DNA from: Oscillospiraceae bacterium
GTDB lineage: Bacteria; Bacillota; Clostridia; Oscillospirales; WRJC01
DNA: 64,000 nt
Assembly: GCA_009783265.1 (NCBI GenBank)
Contig: WRHM01000001.1
Span: forward strand, 682,001-746,000
Direction of reading: 5' to 3'
In this document: one piece after another, positions 22,083 to 43,116 of the stretch
Numbering within the stretch: the stretch's first letter is position 1
Layout of the letters: the number at the start of each line of letters is the position of its first letter
The notes under the pieces: model-generated
The model's database searches: none
What the model was told of the DNA's origin: nothing
Seen by the model: only the letters and a program-made list of their open reading frames with translations
Made by a program: the position numbers and the translations under genes

Positions 22083-22196
22083 AAAGGCTCCTTTTCCAAA
22101 GGAGCTGTCAGCGTAAGCTGACTGAGGATTAATTAATTCACAATAATCCCCCGTCAACACCTCGTGTTGCCACCCCCTTTGAAAAAGAGGGCTTTC
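22083..22196. repeat. Composite inverted repeat between secY and adk
   Basis: Same family and order of parts as 10950: AAAGGCTCCTTTTCC hairpin, GTCAGCGTAAGCTGAC, GTCAACACCTCGTGTTG, and a final CCCCCTTT...AGAGGGCTTT hairpin. Differences between the copies fall mostly in loops. Confidence 0.8.
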
Positions 22197-27523: not shown

Positions 27524-28240
27524 ATGCCCACAGCCAGAAAATTAGGCAAAAGAGCAGACCAGAGACGGGCGATGCTCCGCGGTATGGTCACGCTGCTTTT
27601 AGATAAAGGCAGGATAGAGACTACTCTTGCCAGAGCCAAAGAATTAAAAAGAGTTGCGGATAAAATGATAACTATCGGCAAGAAAAATACGCTTGCCGCA
27701 AAGCGCGCAGCTTTTGCTTATATAACAAAAGAAGAGGTCGTGAAGAAATTATTTGACCGGATCGCGCCGTCATTTGAAAACAGAAACGGCGGATATACAA
27801 GAGTTTTGAAATTAGGCCCGCGCAGGGGCGACGGGGCTGAAATGGCGATTATAGAACTTGTGAACTATACGCCGAAAGATAAAAAAGACAAGAAAGATAA
27901 AACTAAGAAAGAAAAAGAAACTAAAGAAGTTAAAGACACTAAAGAGAAGAAAGAAACAAAGCCTGCTGAAAAGAAAGAGACCAAAGAAGCCGCAGAAGAA
28001 AAGAAAGAACCTGTAGAAGCTAAAAAGACAAGGGCTCCCAGAGCTAAAAAACCGACAGTTGTTGAAAAAGAAGCAGAAGAAATCAAAGAAGCAGAACCGG
28101 TTGTAGTTGAAGAAGCTGAAGTAGTCGAGGAAATCGTTGAAGAACCTGAAACAGTTGAAGTAGCCGAAGAAGTTGCGGAGGTTGAGGCTGAAGAAGAAAC
28201 GGCTGAAACTGAAGAAATTGCGGAGACGGCAGAAGAATAA
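27524..28240 (+). CDS. rplQ: 50S ribosomal protein L17 with long charged C-terminal tail
   Basis: The first 115 or so residues are L17 ([20 protein letters not shown], then [20 protein letters not shown] and the ending [18 protein letters not shown]). They are followed by about 120 residues, first lysine-rich ([19 protein letters not shown]) and then almost purely Glu/Val/Ala. L17 normally has about 115-130 residues. It is the last gene of the supercluster, as usual after rpoA. AAAGGAGG site. Confidence 0.95.
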
Positions 28241-28298: not shown

Positions 28299-28313
28299 CG
28301 TTAAAAAACATGA
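28299..28313 (+). promoter_or_regulatory. Candidate operator, copy 1
   Basis: CGTTAAAAAACATGA. It matches the copy at 28351-28365 in 14 of 15 bases and lies 52 bases upstream in direct orientation, about five helical turns. Confidence 0.5.
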
Positions 28314-28342
28314 AAAATATTTAATAATCGTGAAAATAACGC

Positions 28343-28371
28343 TTGACAAACGTTAATAAACATGATATACT
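28343..28371 (+). promoter_or_regulatory. Promoter of the DeoR-FtsK-gamma regulator
   Basis: TTGACA (28343-28348), 17-base spacer, TATACT (28366-28371), with TG before the -10. The second operator-like repeat fills the spacer, so binding there should block RNA polymerase. Confidence 0.8.
28351..28365 (+). promoter_or_regulatory. Candidate operator, copy 2, inside the promoter spacer
   Basis: CGTTAATAAACATGA, the near-identical partner of 28299-28313. Position between -35 and -10 points to autorepression by the regulator encoded downstream, as is common for DeoR-type proteins. Confidence 0.55.
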
Positions 28372-28390
28372 GTGAATAATACAAAAAAAC

Positions 28391-28437
28391 ACCCGGCTCT
28401 GCGGAGCCACCCTCTTTAAATTAAAGAGGGTAGGGGG
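28391..28437. repeat. Partial composite repeat in the 5' leader of the regulator gene
   Basis: ACCCGGCTCTGCGGAGCCACCC plus CTCTTTAAATTAAAGAGGG. It matches half of the larger CCCTCTTT-family elements and will form two hairpins in the mRNA leader. Confidence 0.65.
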
Positions 28438-28492
28438 AATTTTTAATTTTATGTATATTATTAAATTTAAATTAAACAGGAGTGGTTTATTA

Positions 28493-29566
28493 ATGTTTAT
28501 TGAAGAAAGACATGCGGAGATCTTAAAGATTATCAGCGAAACCGGGAGAATATCGATCGGCGATATTCAACAGAAATTTGAAGTGTCAGTAGATTCCGCG
28601 CGTAGGGATTTACGGATACTCGAAGAAAAAGGCTTGCTTAAAAGAACGCACGGAGGTGCGATTCCGTTGCGACAAGTAGGCGCGACACTGAGCCGTTATA
28701 TCGACATGAAAAAATACGCGGAAATGGACAACCCGGACGTTTGGCCGAATTATGCGGCGGTCGCGAAAAAAGCGGCAGAGTTTATCAAAGAAAACGATAT
28801 TGTATTTTTGACAAGCGGATCGCTCGGATTTATCATGGTCAGATATTTGCCGAAGAATTTTAAATATACGCTGGTTGTAAATTCCGTTGCGTTGGCAGAC
28901 GGGTTGAAGTTTTGGGATAATATAACGGTGTATGTGACGGGAGGGAAAATGCGTATGCACAGCAGGGCAAATATGGTCGATACGCTCGCGGCAAATTTTG
29001 TGAAGAATATGCGCTTTGACCTGAATTTATGTACTGGCGGAGGGTATAATGCAGAATTTGGATTGTCAAACGGCACGGACGAAACTTGTAATTTCCAGAG
29101 GACTGTTATTGAACAGTCAAGAAAAAATATTATTATGGCGCCAAATCAAAAACTTGGCATTACGGCATTTATTAAAGTCTGCGACGCGGATAAGTTTGAT
29201 GTGTTAGTCACAGATTGGGACGCTGTGGAAGATGAACTGGCGAAAATCGAAGAACTCGGCGTACAGGTTATCGTTGTTGAGCAGGAAGAAGATAATATAA
29301 ATAATATAAAAAAAGAAGAAGATAATTTTGCTGCCGACGAAAAACCGAATAAAGACGACCCTATGTTAAAATCAGCGATCGAAGTCGCGCTTGAAAATGG
29401 GACTGTGTCAACGTCGGTTTTACAAACGAAATTATCTTTGGGATATTCAAGAGCGGCGAGAATTATCAATACAATGGAGAAAATGAATATTATAGGGCCG
29501 TTTAACGGTTCAACGCCGAGAAAAGTTCTTATCACAAAAGAAGATTTTATAGAGATGTTTAAATAA
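28493..29566 (+). CDS. DeoR-family regulator fused to an FtsK-gamma-like winged helix
   Basis: The protein is 357 residues from the ATG at 28493 (AGGAG at 28479-28483). Residues 1-57 are a DeoR helix-turn-helix (ERHAEILKIISETGRISIGD, then SVDSARRDLRILEEKGLLKR). Residues about 70-265 are the sugar-phosphate-sensing DeoR C-terminal domain, with a degenerate middle. After an acidic linker (about 265-290), the last 68 residues match the FtsK/SpoIIIE gamma domain: LQTKLSLGYSRAARIINTME and IIGPFNGSTPRKVLI. In FtsK that domain reads KOPS sequences. No ATPase motor is present. Two candidate operators precede the gene. The fusion is unusual; its function is unknown. Confidence 0.8.
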   Translation: MFIEERHAEILKIISETGRISIGDIQQKFEVSVDSARRDLRILEEKGLLKRTHGGAIPLRQVGATLSRYIDMKKYAEMDNPDVWPNYAAVAKKAAEFIKENDIVFLTSGSLGFIMVRYLPKNFKYTLVVNSVALADGLKFWDNITVYVTGGKMRMHSRANMVDTLAANFVKNMRFDLNLCTGGGYNAEFGLSNGTDETCNFQRTVIEQSRKNIIMAPNQKLGITAFIKVCDADKFDVLVTDWDAVEDELAKIEELGVQVIVVEQEEDNINNIKKEEDNFAADEKPNKDDPMLKSAIEVALENGTVSTSVLQTKLSLGYSRAARIINTMEKMNIIGPFNGSTPRKVLITKEDFIEMFK

Positions 29567-29684: not shown

Positions 29685-29942
29685 ATGATTCAAATACGTC
29701 CTGTCTCCGATTTGCGGAACAAATTCACAGAAATCGAACGTACCGTCAGCAACGGCGAGCCGGTATATCTGACTAAAAACGGCTATGGTTCAATGGTGGT
29801 GATGAGCCTTGAAAAGTATGCCGAAATTACAAACGATATAGAATTGAAATTAGACGAAGCTGATAAATTTGCCGAACAATCGGATTCGCGCCTCACACAC
29901 GAAGATGTTTTTGCAAAACTACGGGGAAAAATTCATGAATAA
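29685..29942 (+). CDS. Phd/YefM-type antitoxin
   Basis: The protein is 85 residues. The N-terminal PVSDLRNKFTEIERTVSNGEPVYLTKNGYG is the Phd/YefM DNA-binding fold, followed by MSLEKYAEI and an acidic C-terminus that should wrap the toxin. AAGGGG site. It overlaps the toxin gene by 8 bases. Such antitoxins usually repress their own promoter, which lies just upstream. Confidence 0.88.
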   Translation: MIQIRPVSDLRNKFTEIERTVSNGEPVYLTKNGYGSMVVMSLEKYAEITNDIELKLDEADKFAEQSDSRLTHEDVFAKLRGKIHE

Positions 29943-30246
29943 AAAATATACTTTGCGTTATTTGACTCTGTTTGATAAAGATATAACGGAAACGGTAAAC
30001 TATATTGCCGTAAATCTGCAAGACCCTATTTCGGCGGAACGTTTTGTCGATGAAGTTGAGGCGGCGATAGAAAAACGTCTTGAAATGCCAAAGGCATTTG
30101 CGCCATATCCGTCAACTAAAAAACGAAAATATCCGTATTATCGAATAAATATAAAAAATTATTCGGTTTTTTATGTAGTGATTGGAAACGTAATGGAAGT
30201 CAGGCGGTTTTTATATAATAAACGTAATATAGATGACATGCTTTAA
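29935..30246 (+). CDS. ParE/RelE-superfamily toxin
   Basis: The protein is 103 residues from ATG 29935. The fold signature is readable: YTLRYLTLFDKDITETVNYI, AERFVDEVEAAIEKRLEMP, and the C-terminal YYRINIKNYSVFYVV and VRRFLYNKRNIDDML strands. ParE toxins poison gyrase and RelE toxins cut mRNA; which applies cannot be read. Coupled to the antitoxin by overlap. Confidence 0.85.
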   Translation: MNKKYTLRYLTLFDKDITETVNYIAVNLQDPISAERFVDEVEAAIEKRLEMPKAFAPYPSTKKRKYPYYRINIKNYSVFYVVIGNVMEVRRFLYNKRNIDDML

Positions 30247-30249
30247 AAC

Positions 30250-32976
30250 TTATTTCACATTCACATTCACGCCGTCCGGCACATTTATCTTGTCAAATAT
30301 TATCTTCCCGTCGTCGCCTTTATGCCAGCTTATCTCTATATCGCCCAATGGGTGCGGGAATACGCCTTTTGCCCATTTTATATGATCCGTCGTTTTAACG
30401 TCGAGAATTATATTATTTAACCCCTGTTTTATATCAAAATTCACGCCGAGAATATATCTTGACATGATATACGCCGGGCTTGCGGTCCACGCATGGCACT
30501 GGCTTGCCTCCAAATCAAAATGTTCCGGAGTTGTTTTAAGCCCTTTAGATAAAAACCAGCCCCAGCCTTCTTTCATGCAGGATTCGGCAGTTTTATACAT
30601 TCCGGCTTTATATAAACTGTCAAAGATATAATATCCGTAGCTTGTCGTAAACGCAACGCCGCCGAATGCGTCATAGCCGTTTTTGAAGAACGGGACAAGA
30701 AGCGGCTCAAGAGTTTTTTGTATTACCGCGAGTTTATCCTCGCTGACAACTCCGGCGCGTACTGCAAATAACGAAGCGTGCGGGGAAAAATACTGCATTT
30801 CTGTATTGTCTGAAAACAAGCCTTTTTCTTCGCTCCAAAAAGCGGCTGGGATTGATTTCTCTAAAATTTTTATTCTCTTAGTCATATATTCATAATCATT
30901 TTGTTTATTTATCTCTTTCGCCAGAAACTGCGCACCGCGCAAAGCGATTAAATACAGACAGGTAAATATGCAGTTTATGCCCCTGTTATTCGTGCAGCCG
31001 CCGTCGCCTAAATGACGCGTGCGTTTATCGTTGGGATTATTCAGGTCGGGCGGGTCGGCGTCCAGAAGATAATCGTCGCGTTCGTCGGACAACGCGTTAA
31101 AGACATTCATGTTCGTGATTATCGAATCCCACCATGCTTCGATTAATTTTTTATCGCCCGTATATAAATAATAACTGTAAAACCCGTCAACTACATAAAG
31201 CGAAAAATCAGGTAAAATATAATCGCCGGTATTGGGATATAAGCATCTGTACTGGCCGGTCGGGTGAATTGACTGCGCGTATAATTCAAGCGAGCGTTTC
31301 ATGAGTTTCTGGTCGCCGAAACACGCTAAATTATTGTGATACTGCACGAGAGTGTCGAGAACATACAGACCTCTCTCTCTGTCAACGCAGTCGTCGTAAG
31401 CGTCCTCCATGTTTACAGACTGCGTTCTGGCGCATAATTCCCATATATTATTTAAGCACGGGTCAGAACACTCGAACTTTCCGGGTTTATTTACGGGATA
31501 ATGCCCTGATATAAAATCTATTTTTTCAAGAATAACATCGCCTGAAGTATTTCTTACAGTTATGTTTAAATATTTGAATCCCCTCGGCTGAACAGGCGAC
31601 CAGTTTATTATATTGCCGCCGTCTGAGCAAACCAGCCTGTCGCCCAACGGAATCCACGACTGCTGCCGCACATGCTTATTATCAGCCATATATCTGTCGT
31701 TGTATAATAAATCAATAGTCGCGCCTTTCACGCCTTTAAAAATAAATTCCGGGAATACCAGACGCATATATTCCATGTCGAATATAAGCGTAAACCCGTC
31801 TGGATATAAATCTTTTTTAAATATAAACCCTTGTAAATTATCCGGCGCAATAAACTCTAAAGAATTGCCGTAAGTATCCCAGCTTGCCTCGCGGCACGGG
31901 CTTTCGGCTTTATTTTGTTTTGTCGAAAATACCCATTCCGTTTTTTCATCTTTAAGATTTATTTTCGTATATTTAAACAAATTCCCGCTGTTTTCGTCTC
32001 TGTCGGCAGATATTATCAGGCCTTTGTTTTTCGGGATTGCCAGATAGCAGTCATAAATATCCTGATAAATCTTCACGTTCCCCGAAACTTCATTCCACCC
32101 CTCGTTTAAACGCATGATAAAATTATATCTCAAAGGCTTGGATTCGTCCTCGAATTTCGGCTCGCATATAATATTATTCACAAAAACCGTTTCATATAAT
32201 ACAGCCGAAGCTATATCCTGCTTGCATGGCGAATAAATAAAAGTATTCCAATCGACAGTATCTTTATATTGCGTCTGAGGCTTGGTCGTATCGAGTGTAT
32301 ATGGCAATCCGATATAAAACGAATATAAATCTTCGTCGTTATTTAACGGGAAAACTCTTGTTTTTGTTGTGACGGGCATGTTTTCCATTGACATAAACGG
32401 AATTTCTCTGGGGATTAATCCGCCGAAATGATTTTGATTCGCAAGCTCAACAGCGTTATGCCAGCCGGAATCGTCATAATCAGTATTTATCCAGTTTTCG
32501 TCGAATTTATTCTGGTCATAAAAAATCTGCGCGTTTAACGCAAAACTCAGTTTCGGCGTATAACGCGAATAAGCCGTGTATTCTTCGCATTTCCAGTTTT
32601 GACTGCCTGTCGATAAATCTATATCGTCTATTTTTCCCCACGCGATCATCGCGGCAATTTCCGGGACGTTCTTAAAAGTTTTGTGCCCGTGGAAATTAAC
32701 GAGTACGGCTAAAATATTTTTGCCGTTTTGCAGATATTGCGTTAAATCATAAGTATCAAATTGCGGGAACTTTGGGTCAAACCTGACAGGGCCGAACCCT
32801 ATAAAAATCCCGTTGATATATAATTTATAATTTGTGTCGGCGAAAATATTAAACTCCGCGTTTTTTATATCTGACAAATTATTTATCTCAAACGTTTTTC
32901 TGAATGCGGCATACGGATTTCTCGACGTATCGCCGCTGTTGAACCATATATATTTTGCCTGATTTACATTTGACAT
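30250..32976 (-). CDS. Alpha-L-rhamnosidase, GH78-like
   Basis: The protein is 908 residues, without a signal peptide. N-terminal beta-sandwich domains (AFRKTFEINNLSDIKNAEFN with FADTNYKLYINGIFIGFGP) precede an (alpha/alpha)6 barrel. The barrel shows the GH78 acid region as DDCVDRERGLYVLDTLVQY (about residue 530) and LEASQCHAWTASPAYIMSRY near 860. It hydrolyses terminal rhamnose from plant or microbial glycans, here in the cytoplasm. It lies at the end of the operon-like minus-strand block 35227-30250. Start with GGAGG-like site in TGGAGGAATAAAAT. Confidence 0.85.
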   Translation of the reverse strand: MSNVNQAKYIWFNSGDTSRNPYAAFRKTFEINNLSDIKNAEFNIFADTNYKLYINGIFIGFGPVRFDPKFPQFDTYDLTQYLQNGKNILAVLVNFHGHKTFKNVPEIAAMIAWGKIDDIDLSTGSQNWKCEEYTAYSRYTPKLSFALNAQIFYDQNKFDENWINTDYDDSGWHNAVELANQNHFGGLIPREIPFMSMENMPVTTKTRVFPLNNDEDLYSFYIGLPYTLDTTKPQTQYKDTVDWNTFIYSPCKQDIASAVLYETVFVNNIICEPKFEDESKPLRYNFIMRLNEGWNEVSGNVKIYQDIYDCYLAIPKNKGLIISADRDENSGNLFKYTKINLKDEKTEWVFSTKQNKAESPCREASWDTYGNSLEFIAPDNLQGFIFKKDLYPDGFTLIFDMEYMRLVFPEFIFKGVKGATIDLLYNDRYMADNKHVRQQSWIPLGDRLVCSDGGNIINWSPVQPRGFKYLNITVRNTSGDVILEKIDFISGHYPVNKPGKFECSDPCLNNIWELCARTQSVNMEDAYDDCVDRERGLYVLDTLVQYHNNLACFGDQKLMKRSLELYAQSIHPTGQYRCLYPNTGDYILPDFSLYVVDGFYSYYLYTGDKKLIEAWWDSIITNMNVFNALSDERDDYLLDADPPDLNNPNDKRTRHLGDGGCTNNRGINCIFTCLYLIALRGAQFLAKEINKQNDYEYMTKRIKILEKSIPAAFWSEEKGLFSDNTEMQYFSPHASLFAVRAGVVSEDKLAVIQKTLEPLLVPFFKNGYDAFGGVAFTTSYGYYIFDSLYKAGMYKTAESCMKEGWGWFLSKGLKTTPEHFDLEASQCHAWTASPAYIMSRYILGVNFDIKQGLNNIILDVKTTDHIKWAKGVFPHPLGDIEISWHKGDDGKIIFDKINVPDGVNVNVK

Positions 32977-33018
32977 ATATTTTATTCCTCCATGATTTAT
33001 AATACGTAAATATATAGC

Positions 33019-33046
33019 GCAGGGGCGACCATTGCGCGGCCGCCCG
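33019..33046. repeat. Degenerate REP-like hairpin
   Basis: GCAGGGGCGACCATTGCGCG followed by GCCGCCCG. The foot is GCAG instead of GTAG and the inner stem is imperfect. Confidence 0.5.
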
Positions 33047-33071
33047 TTTTATTTTATATATTTTATTTTTA

Positions 33072-34559
33072 TCAGTCCATCCCCAAAGCTTTAATTACCG
33101 TATCTATCTCTTTATTTATTCTGTTTTCGACTTTCTCAAGCTGAGAGGCGAGATTGCGGTCATTCTTCTTAAACATATTCAAGAATATACCGTCGCGCAA
33201 TAAGCCGCACCATATAGTGTCGCCAAGGTCAAATACGCGGTCGCTGAAAATAATATCGAGCATTTCGGCAGATTCTTCGTCGCGCGCGAGTTTTGTCTTT
33301 AAAGAAACGTCATAATAAACAGGAATAACTGAATTAAACGATTCGCATGACAGAGCTTCCATTATTGCGCCGATATTTTCGGGATTTTCCACGGTTATCG
33401 GTATAATAAACGGGTTACAGCCTTCCATGCGGGTATAATATTTGTCCTGATCCGTATTATATTTCGGATACGGTATTATGCCGAAATCAGTATCCATACC
33501 GCGAAGCGCCTCGACTCTCTGGAATGTGCTGTTGAAAAACAAAGCCTGATTGTTTATAACAAGCGCGTCGCCGGTTTCGCTGATATTAGTGTCGTTCTTG
33601 ACGTCCTGATACCACACGTTTGTGTCGTAAGTCATAGAAAATATTTTATCTATTACTCCGGCAAATTTTTCATCGCTCCTTAAAGTAAACTGGGGTATGC
33701 CGTCGTTTGATTTTGAAATTGATTCAGTTCCGGCAGATACCCAGAAACACGGCAGGACATATTTTACCATCGAAACTAAGCCGTACCTGTCGTTCTGGTC
33801 CATGATTCCGTCGCCGTTCATGTCTTTAACAGCCGCTTTTGCCATTTCCTCGAATTTGTCAAACGTCCAGTTTCCCCCTGCGACAATTATATACGGATTT
33901 TCAAGTTCTAAATCCGTAATCATTTGTTTATTAAAAAGCAAAACGTGCGTATAATCGTATGACGGGATATCCGAAGCCCCTATTGGAAATAAAACCGTGC
34001 CGCCGAATGTCAGCGCCTGTGTGATACTGTCGTCCCAGTAAGGCTGGGTCAAATCAATATATAAATTATAATCGTCAAAATTATATCCCAGACCTTCGTT
34101 GTAATGCGTGAGCATTGTGGCGCACCACGCCGTAACTATATCATACTCGTCCGAACCGGCCAATATAGCGGGCTTTGCTTTTGAAACGTCGTTAATTTCA
34201 GTTATTAATATATTAAAACGCTCTTCTATTTTCCGGTTTCTGTGATAAATGCTGTCCTGTATAATATCTCCTGTCTGTTCTTCAAAATTCATTTCCGCGT
34301 GAAGCCAGTCGCTGTGGTGTGAAAGTATTCTGAAATTATACCCGCCGAGATCCATTTCAGGGACATTGTCTTTATTTAATTCTGGTTCCGGTTGGTCCGG
34401 TTCTTCGTCCTGAGACTCGTCTTGCCGGTCATCATCGTTTTTATTTTCTGTTTTTTCTGTATTTTCGTTTTGATTATTGCTGTCGCATGATGAAAAAATA
34501 AACGGCAGGCAGCATATTAATAAAAATATTACAAAAACAAATAATAATTGCTTTTTCAT
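33072..34559 (-). CDS. Extracellular solute-binding lipoprotein, paralog 2
   Basis: About 495 residues from the ATG at 34559 (AAAGGAG site); upstream in-frame codons lie in lexA's 3' end and are not used. A signal peptide with lipobox FSSC leads to an acidic Asn/Glu/Asp-rich linker. The three family blocks seen in the other paralogs recur as GDIIQDSIYHRNRKIEERF, DMNGDGIMDQNDRYG and TDFGIIPYPKYNTDQDKYYT. Placed between lexA and the rhamnosidase, it may bind rhamnose-containing oligosaccharides; this is inference from context only. No permeases are near. Confidence 0.8.
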   Translation of the reverse strand: MKKQLLFVFVIFLLICCLPFIFSSCDSNNQNENTEKTENKNDDDRQDESQDEEPDQPEPELNKDNVPEMDLGGYNFRILSHHSDWLHAEMNFEEQTGDIIQDSIYHRNRKIEERFNILITEINDVSKAKPAILAGSDEYDIVTAWCATMLTHYNEGLGYNFDDYNLYIDLTQPYWDDSITQALTFGGTVLFPIGASDIPSYDYTHVLLFNKQMITDLELENPYIIVAGGNWTFDKFEEMAKAAVKDMNGDGIMDQNDRYGLVSMVKYVLPCFWVSAGTESISKSNDGIPQFTLRSDEKFAGVIDKIFSMTYDTNVWYQDVKNDTNISETGDALVINNQALFFNSTFQRVEALRGMDTDFGIIPYPKYNTDQDKYYTRMEGCNPFIIPITVENPENIGAIMEALSCESFNSVIPVYYDVSLKTKLARDEESAEMLDIIFSDRVFDLGDTIWCGLLRDGIFLNMFKKNDRNLASQLEKVENRINKEIDTVIKALGMD

Positions 34560-34615
34560 AAATTTAATTCTCCTTTGCGTATATTTCGCATATATTTTCC
34601 TAAGTTTAATAAAAA

Positions 34616-35227
34616 TTAATAAAATCTCAAAACCGAAATTACTTTTCCCAAAACTGTCGCGTCTTTGACAATAATAGGCCTCATAGCCGGGTTGCACGGC
34701 TGTAAGCGTATGTTCCCGTCTTCAGTATAATATTTTTTAACTGTCGCTTCGTCGTCTATCAGGGCAACGACAATTTCACCGTTGTCGGCGTAATTTTTCT
34801 TTTCGACGACGACATAATCGCCGTTCATGATTCCGGCTTCGACCATACTGTCGCCCCTGATTTTAAGCGCGAACAGCCGCGCGTTTAAATAACTCTGCTT
34901 GTATATCGGAAAATCGAGATACCCGTCGTGATTTTCTATCGCCAGTATCGGGATACCCGCCGTGACCTGACCCACAATCGGCACTCTTATAGAAGTCCTC
35001 CTGCCGTTTGCGTCCACGTTGTCAACCCGTATCGTCCTGCTTTTGCCGGCTTCTTTTTGAATATAGCCTTTTTTCTCTAATTTCTCCAGATACGCGTGAA
35101 CCGTTGACGTGCTTTTAATATTAAGCGCAATTTTTATATCCCTCACCGAAGGGGAAAAGCCTTCTTTTTTTATTGTGTCAATAATAAACTCATACACTGC
35201 GCGTTCTTTATGATTCATTTCAGCCAT
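34616..35227 (-). CDS. lexA: LexA repressor
   Basis: The protein is 203 residues. A winged HTH (residues about 1-65, with GFSPSVRDIKIALNIKSTST) is followed by the self-cleavage domain. The cleavage bond is Ala90-Gly91 in QVTAGIP; the catalytic pair is Ser127 (RGDSMVEAG) and Lys164 (ATVKKYY). It represses SOS genes until RecA-stimulated cleavage. I could not find a convincing LexA box upstream. The next gene starts 56 bases downstream. Confidence 0.95.
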   Translation of the reverse strand: MAEMNHKERAVYEFIIDTIKKEGFSPSVRDIKIALNIKSTSTVHAYLEKLEKKGYIQKEAGKSRTIRVDNVDANGRRTSIRVPIVGQVTAGIPILAIENHDGYLDFPIYKQSYLNARLFALKIRGDSMVEAGIMNGDYVVVEKKNYADNGEIVVALIDDEATVKKYYTEDGNIRLQPCNPAMRPIIVKDATVLGKVISVLRFY

Positions 35228-35701
35228 TTTTATTAATTAATCCTGCCTTTCTGTTTTTATCATGTTATTTCGACATTTTTATAATAAATTTATGATAAAT
35301 CATATTATAACACAAAAAAATAATCAGAACAAGTATTTTGATTAAAAATTTAATATTCTTAATCAAAATTTAACAATTTATAATAATATAGTAATTCTAC
35401 TTGAAAACCACCCGTCCTACGGGTACCCCTCCACTGAGGGGAATTAGACAAAACGCCGAATTTGCGCGCAATTCCCCTCTGTGGAGGGGTGGCAAGCGTT
35501 AGCTTGACGGGGTGGTTGTAAACCTGCTTTATAATAAAAAATAAAAAAATCGCTAAAATTATGAATATAACCCAAAAGCCCCCTTTTGAAAGGGGGACAA
35601 GCGACGAAGTCGCAGGGGGATTGCAATCCTCAGTCAGCTTCGCTGCCAGCTCCTTTTAAAAGGAGCCTTTAATCTTTACACTATGATTTTGCGAATAGTT
35701 A
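35228..35701. repeat. Intergenic region between lexA and glgP with two composite repeats
   Basis: After an AT-rich stretch, a nearly perfect composite inverted repeat spans 35406-35518 (CCACCCGTCC...GGGGTGG ends, CCCCTCCACTGAGGGG centre). A second element of the AAAGCCCCC/GGAGCC family spans 35574-35670 and is the inverse of the one at 10950. No gene or RNA is seen. The second element can terminate glgP transcription. Confidence 0.75.
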
Positions 35702-38152
35702 TCAATTCAGCGGCGCTATATGCCATATATTTTCAGCATATTCTTTTATGCTCCTGTCAGCCGCGAAAATCGCCGCCGAAGCTATATTATTCAACGACAT
35801 CTTATTCCATTTTATAGAGTCTTTATACGATTCGTTCAACAAATTATGCACTCTGTAATAATCGCTGAAATCCGCGAGGCACATAAACGGGTCGGCAACA
35901 TAATTCCCCGACAATAAATATTGCGTTATATGACTGAACGAAACCCCGTTGAACCCGTTATTTAACGCCACTATTATTTTCATAAGTTTTTCGTTGCGAA
36001 CATAATAATCATCGGGGTCGTATTTAGCCGCCCATAACGTGTCAACTTCTTTTGCCGTCATGCCGAATATAAATATATTCTCTTTGCCCACAGCGTCTAA
36101 AATCTCTATATTCGCGCCGTCCATAGTTCCAATAGTCACCGCGCCGTTTATCATCAGCTTCATGTTTCCAGTCCCGCTCGCTTCTTTTCCGGCAAGCGAA
36201 ATCTGCTGGCTGACTTCGCTCGCGGGCATTATCTTTTCGGCAAGCGAAACAGAATAATCCTCAAGAAACACGACGCTTAATTTATCTTTTATCAACGGGC
36301 GTTTTTTTATATCCTCGCCTAAGCAATATATTAATTTTATTATCTGTTTTGCCATCTGATAACTCGGGGCGGCTTTTGCGGCGAATATATAAGTCTGGGG
36401 GAGTATATCAAGATTTGGGTTTTCTATTAAATCATTATAAACCGAGATTATCCTCAAAACGTTTAATAACTGCCGTTTATATTCGTGCAGTCTTTTTACC
36501 TGAACGTTAAAAACAGATTCAGGGTTTAGAGAATATCCGAAAGTTTTATTTATATAATTGCTCAGATATATTTTATTTTTATGTTTTATCTCGCCGAGGG
36601 CTTTTAAAATGCTTTCGTCGTTCTCAAATTTTCTAAATTCTGCAAGAATCGCCGCGTTTTTTCTGTAATCTGTGCCTATGCATTCGTCAAGTAAATCAGT
36701 CAATAACGGATTTGACTGCACAAGCCACCGCCTGTGCGCTATGCCGTTTGTGACATTCGTGAATTTATCGGGAGTGTATTCATAAAAATCTTTAAAAAAA
36801 TTGTTTTTTAATATATCAGAATGAATCTTCGCGACGCCGTTTATCGAATGTCCCCCGGCTATGCATAAATTCGCCATTCTGATCTGATTAAACGCAAGTA
36901 TCGCCATTCTCTGTATTTTATCCCAGTCGCCGGGATGTTTTTTCCATAAATCAGCACACAGCCTTTTGTTTATCTCACAAATTATAGAATATATTCTCGG
37001 CATATTTGTCTTTACGAGATATTCGGGCCATGTTTCAAGGGCTTCGGGCAGTATAGTATGATTGGTATATGCCATAGTGTGTCTGGTTATATGCCATGCT
37101 TTGTCCCAGTTATAATTATAATCGTCTATTAATATGCGCATAAGCTCCGGTATCGCGAAAGCGGGATGCGTATCGTTTATGTGAACCGCGCATTTTTTGT
37201 GTAAATTATCAAGATTGGGATAAACAGCGAGATGGCGCGATATTATATTCTGAATCGAAGCCGAGACGAAAAAATACTGCTGTTTTAATCTCAGAGTTTT
37301 GCCTTCGTAGTGATTGTCGGCGGGATATAAAACTTTTGATATTGCCTCGACTATCGCCGTTTCTTCTATCGCTTTGACAAATTCGCCCTGCGAAAAAAGA
37401 GTTACGTCTATACTCGTAGGACTTTTTGCCCTCCAGAGACGCAACACGGCAGGGCTTTCAGTAGAGTATCCCGAAATCATCAGATCATACGGTATAGCCT
37501 CGACTGTCTGGTAATCTTTATACTCAGTTTTCATTTTTCCGTTCTGCCAGTTCTCTTCGATATATCCGCCGAAATTCACTTTGACCGTATAATCCGCTCT
37601 GGGCACAAGAAAAACTTCTCCAGACGGCAGCCAGTCATCCGGGAATTCAACCTGCCAGCCGTCGACTAATTTTTGCTTGAACAGCCCAAATTCATATCTT
37701 ATAGAATAGCCCATAGCGGGATATTTCAAAGTCGCCATAGAATCCATAAAGCAAGCCGCCAAACGTCCGAGACCGCCGTTTCCCAAACCGGGGTCAACGT
37801 CTTTTTCGTATAGATCCTCAAGAGTATACCCATAATCGTTCAATATTTCCTCAAGTTCGTTTTCCAGCCCCAGATTATAAATATTATTTTTAAGCTGTTT
37901 GCCGACGAGAAATTCCATGCATAAATAATATATGTTTTTAAGCCGCTTGGATTTTGTCTGAAGCCTGAAATCGCGGCGTTGTTCTGATAATATATCTCTT
38001 GTCAGAATAGCGACGGCTTTATAAAAATGCGCCGCAGCTGCGTTTTCGCAAGTCAAGCCGTAATATCCCGACAGTTTTTCTTCTATTATTTTAAGCAATT
38101 TTTGTTTTTTATTATTTTCGATTTTGTTTTCTTCTGTTTTATTTGTTTTCAT
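35702..38152 (-). CDS. glgP: Glycogen/alpha-glucan phosphorylase
   Basis: The protein is 816 residues, typical for GT35. It shows VDPGLGNGGLGRLAACFMDS near residue 120, the NDTHPAFAIPELMRIL block, and the pyridoxal-phosphate lysine in ASGTGNMKLMINGA with GTMDGANIEI after it. It releases glucose-1-phosphate from glycogen with phosphate. It is the last gene of the glgC-glgD-glgA block. A broken transposase gene lies between it and glgA. Confidence 0.96.
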   Translation of the reverse strand: MKTNKTEENKIENNKKQKLLKIIEEKLSGYYGLTCENAAAAHFYKAVAILTRDILSEQRRDFRLQTKSKRLKNIYYLCMEFLVGKQLKNNIYNLGLENELEEILNDYGYTLEDLYEKDVDPGLGNGGLGRLAACFMDSMATLKYPAMGYSIRYEFGLFKQKLVDGWQVEFPDDWLPSGEVFLVPRADYTVKVNFGGYIEENWQNGKMKTEYKDYQTVEAIPYDLMISGYSTESPAVLRLWRAKSPTSIDVTLFSQGEFVKAIEETAIVEAISKVLYPADNHYEGKTLRLKQQYFFVSASIQNIISRHLAVYPNLDNLHKKCAVHINDTHPAFAIPELMRILIDDYNYNWDKAWHITRHTMAYTNHTILPEALETWPEYLVKTNMPRIYSIICEINKRLCADLWKKHPGDWDKIQRMAILAFNQIRMANLCIAGGHSINGVAKIHSDILKNNFFKDFYEYTPDKFTNVTNGIAHRRWLVQSNPLLTDLLDECIGTDYRKNAAILAEFRKFENDESILKALGEIKHKNKIYLSNYINKTFGYSLNPESVFNVQVKRLHEYKRQLLNVLRIISVYNDLIENPNLDILPQTYIFAAKAAPSYQMAKQIIKLIYCLGEDIKKRPLIKDKLSVVFLEDYSVSLAEKIMPASEVSQQISLAGKEASGTGNMKLMINGAVTIGTMDGANIEILDAVGKENIFIFGMTAKEVDTLWAAKYDPDDYYVRNEKLMKIIVALNNGFNGVSFSHITQYLLSGNYVADPFMCLADFSDYYRVHNLLNESYKDSIKWNKMSLNNIASAAIFAADRSIKEYAENIWHIAPLN

Positions 38153-38255
38153 TTATTAAAATTTTTATCTCCTGTTGTTTATTGTTATTGCGATAGATTA
38201 AATTTTTGCTAACGTATATTATGCTTGATTTCGACTATCAATTAAAATATAAATT

Positions 38256-38757
38256 TTATTTTTTCACAAAATATTCATCTTCCGCCCATTTGGCGGGGTT
38301 ATTGTCTATGTAATTCCATCTAATCCGATATTCTTCTTCGTTTCGGAGTATGCGTTCGTGGTATGAGCGTTGCCACATATTAAAACCGAATTTCCTTGTT
38401 GTCATTGATTTCAAACTTTGCACAATTTGGGGAATAACCGCCTTTGTAGGGGACGCGCCCCCGCGCGTCCCGTCTTTAATAATGGCGAGTATATGGATAT
38501 GATTTGGCATGATGACATAATTATCAACCAAAACATGAGGATATATGCGATTGATTTTTTGAATCTGCGCCTCAGCAAAGACACCGTATTCTGTCAATTC
38601 AACAAGCGGGACGCGCAGGGGCGCGTCCCCTACAAATAACCTTACCCAACATCTCGTGACCGCCTTCAATACATATCGTTATAAAATAATATCCCGCTTG
38701 CGAATAATCATATCCCTTTAAGCGAATACTCTTTCTAACCGGTAATTCTTTCTGCAT
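38256..38757 (-). pseudogene. REP-associated tyrosine transposase (RAYT, IS200/Y1-like), frameshifted
   Basis: An ATG at 38757, behind GGAGG, opens a good RAYT N-terminus (MQKELPVRKSIRLKGYDYSQ, then AGYYFITICIEGG) that runs into a stop near 38616. A second frame then carries the rest to 38256: VELTEYG, the metal-binding YVIMPNHIHILA (HUH-type His pair), WQRSYHERILRNEEEYRIRW with the likely catalytic tyrosine, and NYIDNNPAKWAEDEY. The frame change falls at a GTAGGGG palindrome (38607-38636). A second such palindrome, in opposite orientation, lies in frame at 38444-38475. The two frames together make a complete protein of about 165 residues. A sequencing slip in the palindrome cannot be excluded. 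Confidence 0.85.
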
Positions 38758-38828
38758 AAATCCGCCTCCAAGCGTATATAATACAAATTTCCTTCGCTCA
38801 ATACATATATTAAATTTATTTTAATTAT

Positions 38829-40364
38829 CTATATCCCCAATAAATCATTATACATTTTAATATATTCTTTTGCCGAAGCTTCCCAGCTGAAATCCCATTC
38901 CATCGCGCGTTTTACAAGCCCCGGCCAGTTTTCTCTGTCGTTATAAGCCGCAAAAGCCCTGTTTATCACTTCTGTTATGCCTTCGCACGAATAATCCGTA
39001 AATACAAATCCCGTACCCTCGCTTTTTTCCGCGTCATACGGCACAATAGAATCTTTAAGCCCGCCGGTTTCGCGCACTGCCGGAACCGCGCCGTATCTTG
39101 CGGCTATCATCTGGCTTAACCCGCACGGCTCAAACTGCGACGGCATCAAAAATATATCTGACCCTGCGTATATTCTTCTTGCGAGTTCCGGATTAAATCC
39201 CAGATGCACGCGTATTTTATCGGGGAACCGCTCACGAAACAGTTCAAATTGCAGTTCGTATTCCCTGTCCCCGTTTCCCAAAACCACAAGTTGCAGCGGC
39301 AGTTTTACGATTTCGTTCATAGCTCCGATAACTAAATCTATGCCCTTATGTCTGACTAATCTTGTCACCATCGCGATTACCGGGATTTGATTATTTTTTG
39401 GCAAGTCTAATACAGTCTGGAGTTGTAACTTGTTTTCAGCTTTTTTATCTATGTTTTCGCTGTCATAATTTGCGAAAATTTTCGAATCAGTTTTCGGGTT
39501 ATAAGATTCTGTATCTATTCCGTTGAGTATGCCGCGAATTTTATCCGTATACATATTTATGACCGGATCAAGGCCGTGGGCGTATTTATAATCGTGTATT
39601 TCTTTTGCGTAAGCAGGCGAGACTGTCGAGATAATATCTGAGCAAACCATTGCGCCTTTCATAAGATTTATCAGCCCGTCAAATTCCACGATTGATCTAT
39701 ACTCATACGAAATATCAAATATATCTTCAAGAATCGACATATTAAATTTACCCTGATATTCTATATTATGCACTGTGAAAACAGTCCTGATATTCTTGAA
39801 TTCTTTTTTATTTGAATAAGTCGTCCTGAGATAAACCGGAATTATCGCAGACTGCCAGTCGTGCGCATGTATTATATCCGGGATAAAATCTATAGCTTCA
39901 AGGATATCCAAAACAGCCTTGCCGAAAAAAGCAAATCTCTCCCCGTCGTCAAAATATCCGTAGCAGCCGCTTCTCTTGAAATAATACTCGTTGTCGATAA
40001 AATAATATATAACATCCCCGGCTTTTGCCGTATATATCCCGCAATACTGATGCCGCCAGCTTAAATCAACGTATATTTTCCCGACAAACTCTAATATATC
40101 TTTGAATTTTACCGCTATTTCTTCATATAACGGGATAACCACACGGACATCTGTATCTTTATCAGATTTACAAAGATTTTTAGGCAATGCCCCGATAACT
40201 TCGCCCAACCCTCCGGTAGTTATAAGCGGCGCGGCTTCGCTTGAAACAAACAATATTTTTTTTGCTGCCTTTTTGACTTTCTTCGCGGCGGGCTTTTTTG
40301 GTTTAACTGCCGGTTCGGTTTTTATTATTTCTTTTGTTTTGGTTGTTGGTGTTTTTGTGGGCAT
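38829..40364 (-). CDS. glgA: Glycogen synthase (ADP-glucose type)
   Basis: The protein is 511 residues, GT5. An N-terminal tail of about 38 residues rich in Lys, Pro and Thr precedes KKILFVSSEAAPL. The core has VFTVHNIEYQGKF, the nucleotide-binding VTRLVRHKGIDLV and the C-terminal FEPCGLSQMIAARYGAVP. The conserved KTGGL sugar-nucleotide motif reads TTGGL, with Thr in place of Lys. It elongates glycogen from ADP-glucose made by GlgC/GlgD just upstream. Confidence 0.94.
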   Translation of the reverse strand: MPTKTPTTKTKEIIKTEPAVKPKKPAAKKVKKAAKKILFVSSEAAPLITTGGLGEVIGALPKNLCKSDKDTDVRVVIPLYEEIAVKFKDILEFVGKIYVDLSWRHQYCGIYTAKAGDVIYYFIDNEYYFKRSGCYGYFDDGERFAFFGKAVLDILEAIDFIPDIIHAHDWQSAIIPVYLRTTYSNKKEFKNIRTVFTVHNIEYQGKFNMSILEDIFDISYEYRSIVEFDGLINLMKGAMVCSDIISTVSPAYAKEIHDYKYAHGLDPVINMYTDKIRGILNGIDTESYNPKTDSKIFANYDSENIDKKAENKLQLQTVLDLPKNNQIPVIAMVTRLVRHKGIDLVIGAMNEIVKLPLQLVVLGNGDREYELQFELFRERFPDKIRVHLGFNPELARRIYAGSDIFLMPSQFEPCGLSQMIAARYGAVPAVRETGGLKDSIVPYDAEKSEGTGFVFTDYSCEGITEVINRAFAAYNDRENWPGLVKRAMEWDFSWEASAKEYIKMYNDLLGI

Positions 40365-40440
40365 GGTTATTTTTCTCCTTTTTGAGGTTTTTAGGTTTTA
40401 GTTTTGTGTTAAGTAATTATAGTAACGCATGGTGTCAGTC

Positions 40441-40574
40441 AAAGCCCTCTTTAGCGGCGAAGCCGCGTAAAGGGGGTGTCACGCAGTGACGGGGGATTCA
40501 TAAAGTTGATGTCGTTTGGAAGAATCACCCGCCGCCTGCGGGCGGCACCCTCTTTTGCGAAAGAGGGCTTTTTT
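40441..40574. repeat. Composite inverted repeat between glgA and glgD
   Basis: AAAGCCCTCTTTAGCGGCGA start and CCCTCTTTTGCGAAAGAGGG plus CTTTTTT end, with GTCACGCAGTGACGGG and CCCGCCGCCTGCGGGCGG hairpins between them. It belongs to the same family as 7454 and 43271. Confidence 0.75.
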
Positions 40575-40633
40575 AGATAATTTCCTTTTTTTGCTGTTTT
40601 TTCTATTAATGCCACGAACTAAATTCTTTTTTC

Positions 40634-41776
40634 TCATATCCTCTTATTCTTCGTGATATACATCAGGTATTCTTTATCAGCCGTGAGCTTTTTTCCGTCG
40701 GTTATAATTACGCCTTTGTCGGCTATTATCCATTCGAGATTGCAGTCCTCGCCAATTATTCCGTCCTGCATTACCACGCAGTTTTTTACAACTGAGTTTT
40801 TGCTTACTTTTACCCCTCTGAAAATAACGCTGTTTTCAACAGTTCCGTCTATAATACAGGCGTCTGCGACAAGTGAATTTCTGACGTTTGCGTTTTCGCC
40901 GTATCTCGCCGGCTCAGAGTCCCTGACTTTTGTGTAAACATTTCTGCCTGTATTATAAAATAATTCGTTTCTCTTATTATTATCGAGCATTTCTATGTTA
41001 TATTTAAAATAATTGTTTATTGAGTTTATATGCGCGCAATAGCCTTTATGCTCATATCCGGCTATATTTATATTATCGACCTCGGCTAATAAAATATCCC
41101 TGACCAAATGAGTCTTTCCGGTCGCGATTGAGTTGGCTATCATGTTTAACATATAATCTTTACGCATAACCCAAGTATTCATGCTTACTTTAAACGTTCC
41201 GCCCTCGACATACCACGGCTCTATATAAACTTCGGTTATCCTGTCCGGATTATGATTACTCGAATCTTCAGGGATTGTATAGAGAGTGGAATGCGCCGCG
41301 CTTTCTTTATCTATATAATGCTCGTTGTAAACCGCAGTTATATCAGCTCCGGATTTTATGTGAAAATCTATTACGTTTTTATAATTTATATTGCAGATCA
41401 TATCGCAGTCGCTCATGACGACAAATTCCTGCGGGGAATTGCTTATATAATTCGCAATTCTCGTAAGCGCGTCGAGTCTGCCCCTGTAAAGACCCGCCCT
41501 GCTGTCCTCGCCATAAGGCGGGAGTATCGCTATCCCTCCGTTTTTACGCGATAAATCCCAGTCTTTGCCCGAGCCTATATGCTCCATCAAAGGCTGATAA
41601 TTGCTTTTTGTTATAACCCCGACTTTATGTATTCCCGAATTTATCATATTTGACAAAACGAAATCTATAAGCCAGTATCTCCCGGCAAACGGAATCGCCG
41701 CGACCGTCCTGTTTGTCGTCAGAGCCCCGACGTCCCACTCGTGTATATCCGAAAAAACTATTCCCAACGCCTGCAT
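40634..41776 (-). CDS. glgD: GlgD, non-catalytic partner of ADP-glucose pyrophosphorylase
   Basis: The protein is 380 residues. It aligns with GlgC along its length (SNMINSGIHKVGVITKSNYQ, GSGKDWDLSRKNGGIAILPP, and a left-handed beta-helix C-terminus). It lacks the catalytic GGxGxRL loop, having FSDIHEWDVGALTTNR instead. In Firmicutes GlgD forms a hetero-oligomer with GlgC and raises its activity. It lies directly between glgC and glgA. Confidence 0.92.
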   Translation of the reverse strand: MQALGIVFSDIHEWDVGALTTNRTVAAIPFAGRYWLIDFVLSNMINSGIHKVGVITKSNYQPLMEHIGSGKDWDLSRKNGGIAILPPYGEDSRAGLYRGRLDALTRIANYISNSPQEFVVMSDCDMICNINYKNVIDFHIKSGADITAVYNEHYIDKESAAHSTLYTIPEDSSNHNPDRITEVYIEPWYVEGGTFKVSMNTWVMRKDYMLNMIANSIATGKTHLVRDILLAEVDNINIAGYEHKGYCAHINSINNYFKYNIEMLDNNKRNELFYNTGRNVYTKVRDSEPARYGENANVRNSLVADACIIDGTVENSVIFRGVKVSKNSVVKNCVVMQDGIIGEDCNLEWIIADKGVIITDGKKLTADKEYLMYITKNKRI

Positions 41777-41837
41777 GTTTATTTATTCCTTTCTAATTTT
41801 TGATTTTATAGACATAAGTAAAATTATTTATTTTACC

Positions 41838-41886
41838 CCTTACCCTCTTTACTAAAGAGGGTAACTCCGCAGAGCCGGGTGTTTTA
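41838..41886. repeat. Short composite repeat between glgD and glgC
   Basis: TACCCTCTTTACTAAAGAGG followed by CTCCGCAGAGCCGGGTGTTT. This is the inverse of the element at 28391. Confidence 0.65.
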
Positions 41887-41901
41887 TTACCCGCATAAAT
41901 T

Positions 41902-43116
41902 TTACCCCACAATATCCCCGTCGATCATATCTCCCGGATTTACAGTGACCCCACCGCCTATTTTTATATCTTTCGCCACGACTGTAATCCCTGTTGCTTC
42001 TGTTCTTTTTTCGCCGATTTTCGAGTTGCTCCCGATTTCGGCGTTTTCGTCTATTATAGAATACTCCACCGATGTGTTCGCGCCAATTACAGAGTTTGCC
42101 ATAATTATAGAATCTTTGACATAACAGCCCTCGTTGATTTTTACTCCGGGGAATATTATAGAATGCTCGACAAACCCGTAAATTTCACACCCTTCTGATA
42201 TAATAGAATTTTTCATGCTCCCCGTCGCGCCTATATAATGCGGGGGCTTCCCCGTAGTTCTCGAATATATTTTCCAGTCGGGCAGATCGTTTTTGAAATC
42301 TTCGTCTAATAAATCCATATTAGCCTGCCATAAACTCTCGATAGTTCCCACGTCCCTCCAGTATCCCCTGAAAGAATACGCGAACATTCTCTCACCTGCG
42401 GCAAGCATTTTAGGGATTATATTTTTTCCGAAATCTTTAGACGATTCTGCGTCTTCGTTATCCTCGATTAAAAACTTTCTCAGTTTATCCCAATTAAATA
42501 TATATAAACCCATAGAAGCCTTGTTGCTTTTGGGGATTTTCGGCTTTTCCTCAAATTCATAAATACTGCCATCGTCGTTTATGTTCATGATTCCAAACCG
42601 GCTCGCTTCTTCTATCGGCACGTCAATAACCGCAATCGTGCAGTCCGCGTTTTTTTCCTTGTGATATTCAAGCATTAAGCTATAGTCCATTTTATAGATA
42701 TGATCTCCGCCCAAAACTATAACATAATCAGGGTCAAATCTTTCGACATAATGCAAATTCTGATATACGGCGTTAGCCGTTCCGGTGTACCAGTCATAAC
42801 CGAAGTTTTTCTGATACGGGGGCAAAATAGTAACTCCGCCCTCTAATCTGTCCAAATCCCACGGCTGCCCGTTGCCGATATACTCGTTGAGCAATAACGG
42901 CTGATACTGCGTCAAAACACCGACAGTATCAAACCCTGAATTTACGCAGTTTGAGACAGTATAATCTATAATCCGGTATTTTCCACCGAACGGGACTGCC
43001 GGTTTCGCGATTTTGCTTGTGAGTACATAAAGCCTTGACCCCTGTCCTCCCGCCAGTATCATTGCCACACATTCTTTTTTCTTTGTGTTTAAAATATTAT
43101 TTATATTTGTAACCAA
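41902..43116 (-). CDS. glgC: Glucose-1-phosphate adenylyltransferase, catalytic subunit
   Basis: The protein is 404 residues. The catalytic loop [20 protein letters not shown] (about residues 18-37), [19 protein letters not shown], the ADP-glucose site GTANAVYQN and the [13 protein letters not shown] motif are all present, with a beta-helix C-terminus. It makes ADP-glucose, the committed step of glycogen synthesis. First gene of the minus-strand glg block. Confidence 0.95.

Follow-up and report, generated by a model that had tools for sequence, protein, structure and literature searches.

A DeoR-type regulator with a predicted FtsK gamma winged helix in an Oscillospiraceae genome

Within a 64,000-nucleotide stretch of an Oscillospiraceae genome, analysed as a whole and referred to here as the window, one gene encodes a protein that, judged from its sequence, is a normal DeoR regulator extended by a genuine FtsK gamma winged helix. 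The tail is a copy of the 3' end of the resident ftsK gene, which was fused in frame to a DeoR gene and has long been kept under purifying selection. It is a predicted folded winged helix that most probably still binds DNA.

Domain architecture and predicted structure

The fusion gene (28493–29566; plus strand, as are the other features of the gene and its leader) encodes 357 amino acids and starts with an ATG at 28493, which is preceded by the ribosome-binding site AGGAG (28478–28482); an alternative longer frame opens at 28451. A Pfam search recovered the ordinary DeoR N-terminus and sensor domain that the initial annotation had described for this open reading frame: a DeoR winged helix-turn-helix (HTH_DeoR, PF08220; aa 6–57, 28508–28663; 2.2e-15) is followed by a DeoRC sensor domain (PF00455; aa 89–241, 28757–29215; 7e-30), and both exceed the Pfam cut-offs. 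An acidic linker of low model confidence, which is probably flexible and contains the fusion point, covers aa 263–286 (29279–29350). The remainder had been assigned, at residues 290–357, to the gamma-type winged helix of FtsK/SpoIIIE, and the HMM search indeed placed this region in the FtsK_gamma family (PF09397; aa 287–348, 29351–29536) at 1e-27 and 96 bits, with a gathering cut-off of 30.6. In addition, the fusion protein matches the Pseudomonas aeruginosa FtsK gamma structures 2j5o and 2ve8/2ve9 at 2e-8 (phmmer against the PDB). A chance match is excluded as the source of this assignment, and the score together with the position of the tail beside FtsK gamma in the tree rules out a generic winged helix. 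Across the whole genome, the Pfam search yielded two FtsK_gamma matches, namely ftsK and the fusion gene. Neither the FtsK_SpoIIIE AAA+ motor nor the membrane domain was detected in the fusion protein by Pfam.

AlphaFold modelling, for which an alignment of DeoR orthologues alone was used as input, predicts a DeoR part that resembles Escherichia coli DeoR (7l6l; TM 0.88 on the target) and a sensor domain that also matches ribose-5-phosphate isomerases (RpiA-like fold). The tail is modelled as a winged helix with helices at 290–302, 307–314 and 318–330 and a strand at 343–345, in agreement with the fold initially proposed; this block reaches a pLDDT of ~77–90 with an input alignment devoid of any gamma homologue. 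Linker residues 268–282 fall below a pLDDT of 50. An alignment that combined DeoR orthologues with FtsK gamma fragments was discarded because MAFFT placed the gammas onto the DeoR helix-turn-helix.

Origin and distribution of the gamma tail

The resident ftsK gene is open over 963 codons and lies on contig C4, separate from the fusion gene. At the DNA level, the tail and this gene share 150 of 208 bases (72% identity over 208 bp). At the protein level, tail residues 272–355 are 67% identical to the FtsK of the same genome and 65% and 64% identical to those of two genus-mates. A tree built from 37 gamma domains groups the tail with the resident FtsK gamma as its sister (support 99/88), and the two have the motifs LQTKL and RIINTMEKMN in common where both genus-mates present LQRKL and RIVDKMEKMN. 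Because the DNA match, the closest protein identity, the sister placement and the common motifs coincide, the gamma-coding segment is taken to be a duplicate of the resident ftsK 3' end. The copied piece would correspond to the last ~75 codons of ftsK, attached via the flexible acidic linker.

In the genus-mate G002, the DeoR orthologue is 73% identical, has the same start and the same type of promoter, and comprises 266 aa, its end coinciding with the beginning of the linker in the fusion protein. For the genus-mate G001, no DeoR orthologue turned up in the search, which returned the FtsK tail alone. The tail would thus have been gained by a stand-alone regulator in the lineage of the present genome, after its split from the two known genus-mates. 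An older fusion that was lost again in G002 is disfavoured, given that the tail groups as sister to the resident FtsK, a placement based on only 67 aligned residues. A chimeric assembly join of the DeoR gene to the end of ftsK is very improbable: the genome is a 17-contig assembly and the fusion occurs in this single assembly, which would suit such an artefact, but the tail is only 72% identical in DNA to a gene that is nevertheless its closest relative, and its frame runs unbroken inside a 775-kb contig. Misassembly of ftsK itself was ruled out by the 28% base difference between the two copies and by the saturation of their synonymous sites.

The gamma tail is absent from all of the best 80 orthologues in GTDB r220, which were drawn from Oscillospiraceae, Clostridium, Lachnospiraceae and others and all end at ~250–266 aa. 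No second DeoR–gamma fusion was found in ~1,000 Bacillota genomes (295 of the order, 391 of the class and 398 of the phylum, in overlapping samples), nor in viral contigs. The one long plasmid match (H1, Erwinia, 24%) was rejected as a DeoR gene running into an unrelated isomerase gene. A common architecture is ruled out by the 80 best orthologues, the genome samples and the plasmid and phage records, and the DeoR–gamma fusion is a singleton within the sequences searched, seen in one genome and one assembly.

Promoter, putative operator and gene neighbourhood

A sigma-70-type promoter (TTGACA-17 bp-TATACT, 28343–28371) can be read from the sequence upstream of the fusion gene, and the same arrangement precedes the G002 orthologue. 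It is accompanied by three operator-like boxes: box 1 (GTTAAAAAACATGA, 28300–28313) and box 2 (TTTAATAATCGTGA, 28320–28333) each deviate from RTTAATAAHCRTGA by one mismatch, and box 3 (GTTAATAAACATGA, 28352–28365) is an exact copy, the sole one in the genome, that sits in the -35/-10 spacer and fills most of it. G002 carries two exact boxes at the equivalent place, and exact matches elsewhere in either genome amount to zero. Upstream of 81 genes, i.e. the fusion gene and its 80 orthologues, 67 such boxes with up to two mismatches were counted, compared to 3.75 in shuffled sequence; the motif was derived from the window and G002, both of which are among the 81 and contribute only seven of the 67. 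Since the boxes are conserved over the promoter at this excess, autorepression by the DeoR half via the putative operator is well supported, and control of the gene by its own product is very probable, although the DeoR half may instead activate its own gene. When the operator was used to search for a regulon, one-mismatch sites elsewhere remained near background. A comparison of gene neighbourhoods by eye revealed no metabolic neighbours kept among the orthologues; because neighbouring genes vary, they point to no target pathway or ligand, including the sugar-phosphate signal that had initially been suggested.

The leader of the fusion gene also contains a copy of a dispersed palindromic repeat, which is found between genes (CCCTCTTT...AAAGAGGG, with CACCCG/CGGGTG arms). 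Within the window, this repeat is located at 880–1016, 22160–22190, 28390–28436, 40440–40570 and 41840–41880. It also follows ftsK in both this genome and G001, and the DeoR orthologue in G002. The leader copy includes the perfect palindrome CCCTCTTTAAATTAAAGAGGG (28410–28430), which is missing from the leader of the G002 orthologue.

Upstream, a 238-codon gene (27524–28240, plus strand) directly follows rpoA, at the position of the ribosomal protein L17 gene, and the C-terminal half of its product is a long low-complexity extension rich in K, E, A and V. A Phd/YefM antitoxin and ParE toxin pair (29685–30246, plus strand) lies directly 3' of the fusion gene. Further downstream, the minus strand (30250–43116) carries an alpha-L-rhamnosidase-like gene, a glycogen phosphorylase gene and two GlgC/GlgD-like nucleotidyltransferase genes.

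Selection and evolutionary rate of the tail

Tail and resident gamma share 52 of 67 core residues. Their comparison yields a pS of 0.79 and a pN of 0.13, with no stop in the tail. Long purifying selection is indicated because synonymous sites are saturated while only 13% of nonsynonymous sites differ. When neutral decay of the resident gamma was simulated at 0.3 substitutions per site, none of 5,000 simulations was stop-free and as similar as the tail; at 0.2 substitutions per site, 0.8% reached this similarity without a stop. These results bear on the idea that the tail is left over from the gene fusion as a neutral relic, folded and functionless. In favour of this idea, one can cite the occurrence in a single genome and the dispersed repeat of the leader, which points to local rearrangement. 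Such a relic is unlikely, as it conflicts with the saturated synonymous sites, the low nonsynonymous change and the uninterrupted frame, and simulated decay rules it out at plausible branch lengths. The constraint that the substitution pattern points to is real yet looser than that on the resident gamma, since the tail has a branch of 0.77 in the tree compared to 0.14, i.e. ~five times longer, and the specificity of the tail may have shifted.

KOPS and the recognition surface of the tail

The octamer GGGNAGGG behaves as KOPS in this genome and is strongly polarised. On contig C2, 17 of 17 copies up to 113 kb point rightward, and beyond this position 17 of 18 point leftward. Over the last 290 kb of contig C1, around the fusion gene, 32 of 39 KOPS octamers lie on the plus strand, and the window contains eight, all on the plus strand. 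The sharp flip in polarity at ~111–116 kb of C2 in this genome (G000, locus L153) probably marks the terminus/dif region; a search for a Bacillus subtilis-like dif at the ~113 kb flip returned nothing above shuffled background. A KOPS-like octamer (GGGTAGGG, 28428–28435) is also present in the leader of the fusion gene. It was created by the dispersed-repeat copy that the genus-mate leader lacks and may be incidental to the repeat; the exact 13-mer that holds it occurs twice in the genome. The chance of a plus-strand KOPS in the leader is ~1–3%, and the octamer is a weak lead and nothing beyond that.

Residues for gamma contacts with KOPS and XerD were taken from the literature (PMC2680272; PMC5052618), with E. 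coli FtsK RQFRIGYNR numbered 1289–1297 (PMC5052618). Residues R1300, E1303 and E1306 of E. coli FtsK take part in recognising KOPS (PMC2680272), and three gammas bind one KOPS (PMC5052618). In the tail, R1300 corresponds to R322 and E1306 to E328, and E1303 is replaced by N325, with N in the resident FtsK as well. The recognition helix (aa 318–330, SRAARIINTMEKM, 29444–29482) equals that of the resident FtsK except for S318, which is an A there, and the wing differs by E337N and K340T. Since the two helices are nearly identical, the tail probably recognises the KOPS-type octamer of the resident FtsK, GGGNAGGG.

A competing explanation, possible although clearly short of even likelihood, is that the tail is folded, selected and DNA-binding, with a specificity that has drifted or relaxed, so that it adds affinity for the operator region unconnected to KOPS or to chromosome direction. 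The roughly fivefold faster evolution of the tail, the changes at wing positions 337 and 340 and at 318, and the gamma-like tails of XRE regulators, which are far diverged from FtsK, are in line with such drift; the remainder of the recognition helix, with R322 and E328 kept, speaks against it. A different function has also been considered, in which the tail serves as a protein-interaction module that contacts XerD or FtsK and reports on or interferes with dimer resolution. Gamma also binds and activates the recombinase XerD, in E. coli by the same surface (PMC5052618), and the tail retains Q1288 as Q310. The residues do not favour a XerD role because the position of R1289, the residue of greatest effect, is a T in both the tail (T311) and the resident FtsK; N1296 is moreover S318 in the tail, and this explanation is improbable.

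Comparison with known systems

The fusion protein resembles DeoR/GlpR repressors in its HTH_DeoR and DeoRC domains, in a sensor fold like that of 7l6l and in the operator repeats at its own promoter, and differs from them by the additional C-terminal winged helix, seen in 0 of the 80 best orthologues. It agrees with the FtsK/SpoIIIE gamma domain (PF09397; 2ve8/2ve9, 2j5o) in sequence, in predicted fold and in most of the residues that recognise KOPS. Unlike in FtsK/SpoIIIE, its gamma is not part of a membrane-anchored AAA+ translocase, and the missing motor implies that directional loading would not occur. Capture of a gamma by an unrelated protein has been described for the Bacillus phages Sam46 and Sam112, whose small terminase carries an N-terminal FtsK_gamma (PMC8190038); the same study also refers to separate phage genes that are gamma-like and have no known role. 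There, too, the gamma is close to the host's own FtsK/SpoIIIE, but the protein is a phage packaging protein rather than a transcription factor and the gamma is N-terminal.

Also comparable are two XRE (HTH_3)–FtsK_gamma proteins from the same taxonomic order, encoded at L069:1439–1822 (minus strand) in genome G038 (47 bits) and at L157:1501–1872 (minus strand) in genome G085 (43 bits). Like the fusion protein, they combine the DNA-binding domain of a regulator with a following gamma-type winged helix above the Pfam cut-off; they differ in their size of ~125 aa, in having no sensor domain and in a much more diverged gamma. By their domain matches, these proteins of two other genomes of the order show that gamma has been appended to regulators before. 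A Schlafen AlbA_2/RecG-C-like protein (L068:1881–3179, minus strand, G010) has a C-terminal winged helix with weak similarity to FtsK_gamma (0.0014), below the cut-off. A literature search found no published description of a DeoR–FtsK_gamma fusion.

Proposed mechanism and implications

The preferred reading, held with about even confidence, is a DeoR repressor that regulates its own gene and has gained a second, functional DNA-binding module, which probably reads KOPS-like sites. DNA binding by gamma, KOPS specificity, oligomer geometry and the regulatory effect are what we infer in this model. DeoR proteins form oligomers. Because of this, and because FtsK uses three gammas per KOPS, a DeoR oligomer could present several gammas together. 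The N-terminal helix-turn-helix domains would hold the gene's own promoter, while the tethered gammas would hold a second, most probably KOPS-type, site. The operator and a nearby KOPS, e.g. the leader octamer GGGTAGGG, could thereby be held together, and the outcome would be tighter autorepression or a higher local concentration of the regulator on the chromosome. A lone gamma may bind weakly, as FtsK hexamers present three to one KOPS. The initial suggestion that one protein could bind two distinct DNA sites has become more plausible with the conserved putative operator and the near-intact recognition helix; the other initial suggestion, a sugar-phosphate signal linked to chromosome position, is hypothetical. 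A more far-reaching version, in which KOPS provides a second address that couples effector-controlled operator binding to KOPS position or orientation, or in which the regulator competes with FtsK, can be proposed only tentatively.

The fusion can be viewed as a natural experiment in adding a second DNA-reading domain to a transcription factor, in which the donor (the genome's own ftsK), the recipient (the tail-less orthologue of a genus-mate) and the selection are all readable from sequence. Should KOPS still be read by the tail, this protein would be, to our knowledge, the first transcription factor to use the orientation signs of the chromosome. If true, it would offer a route to test whether regulators can make use of the chromosome's polar layout.
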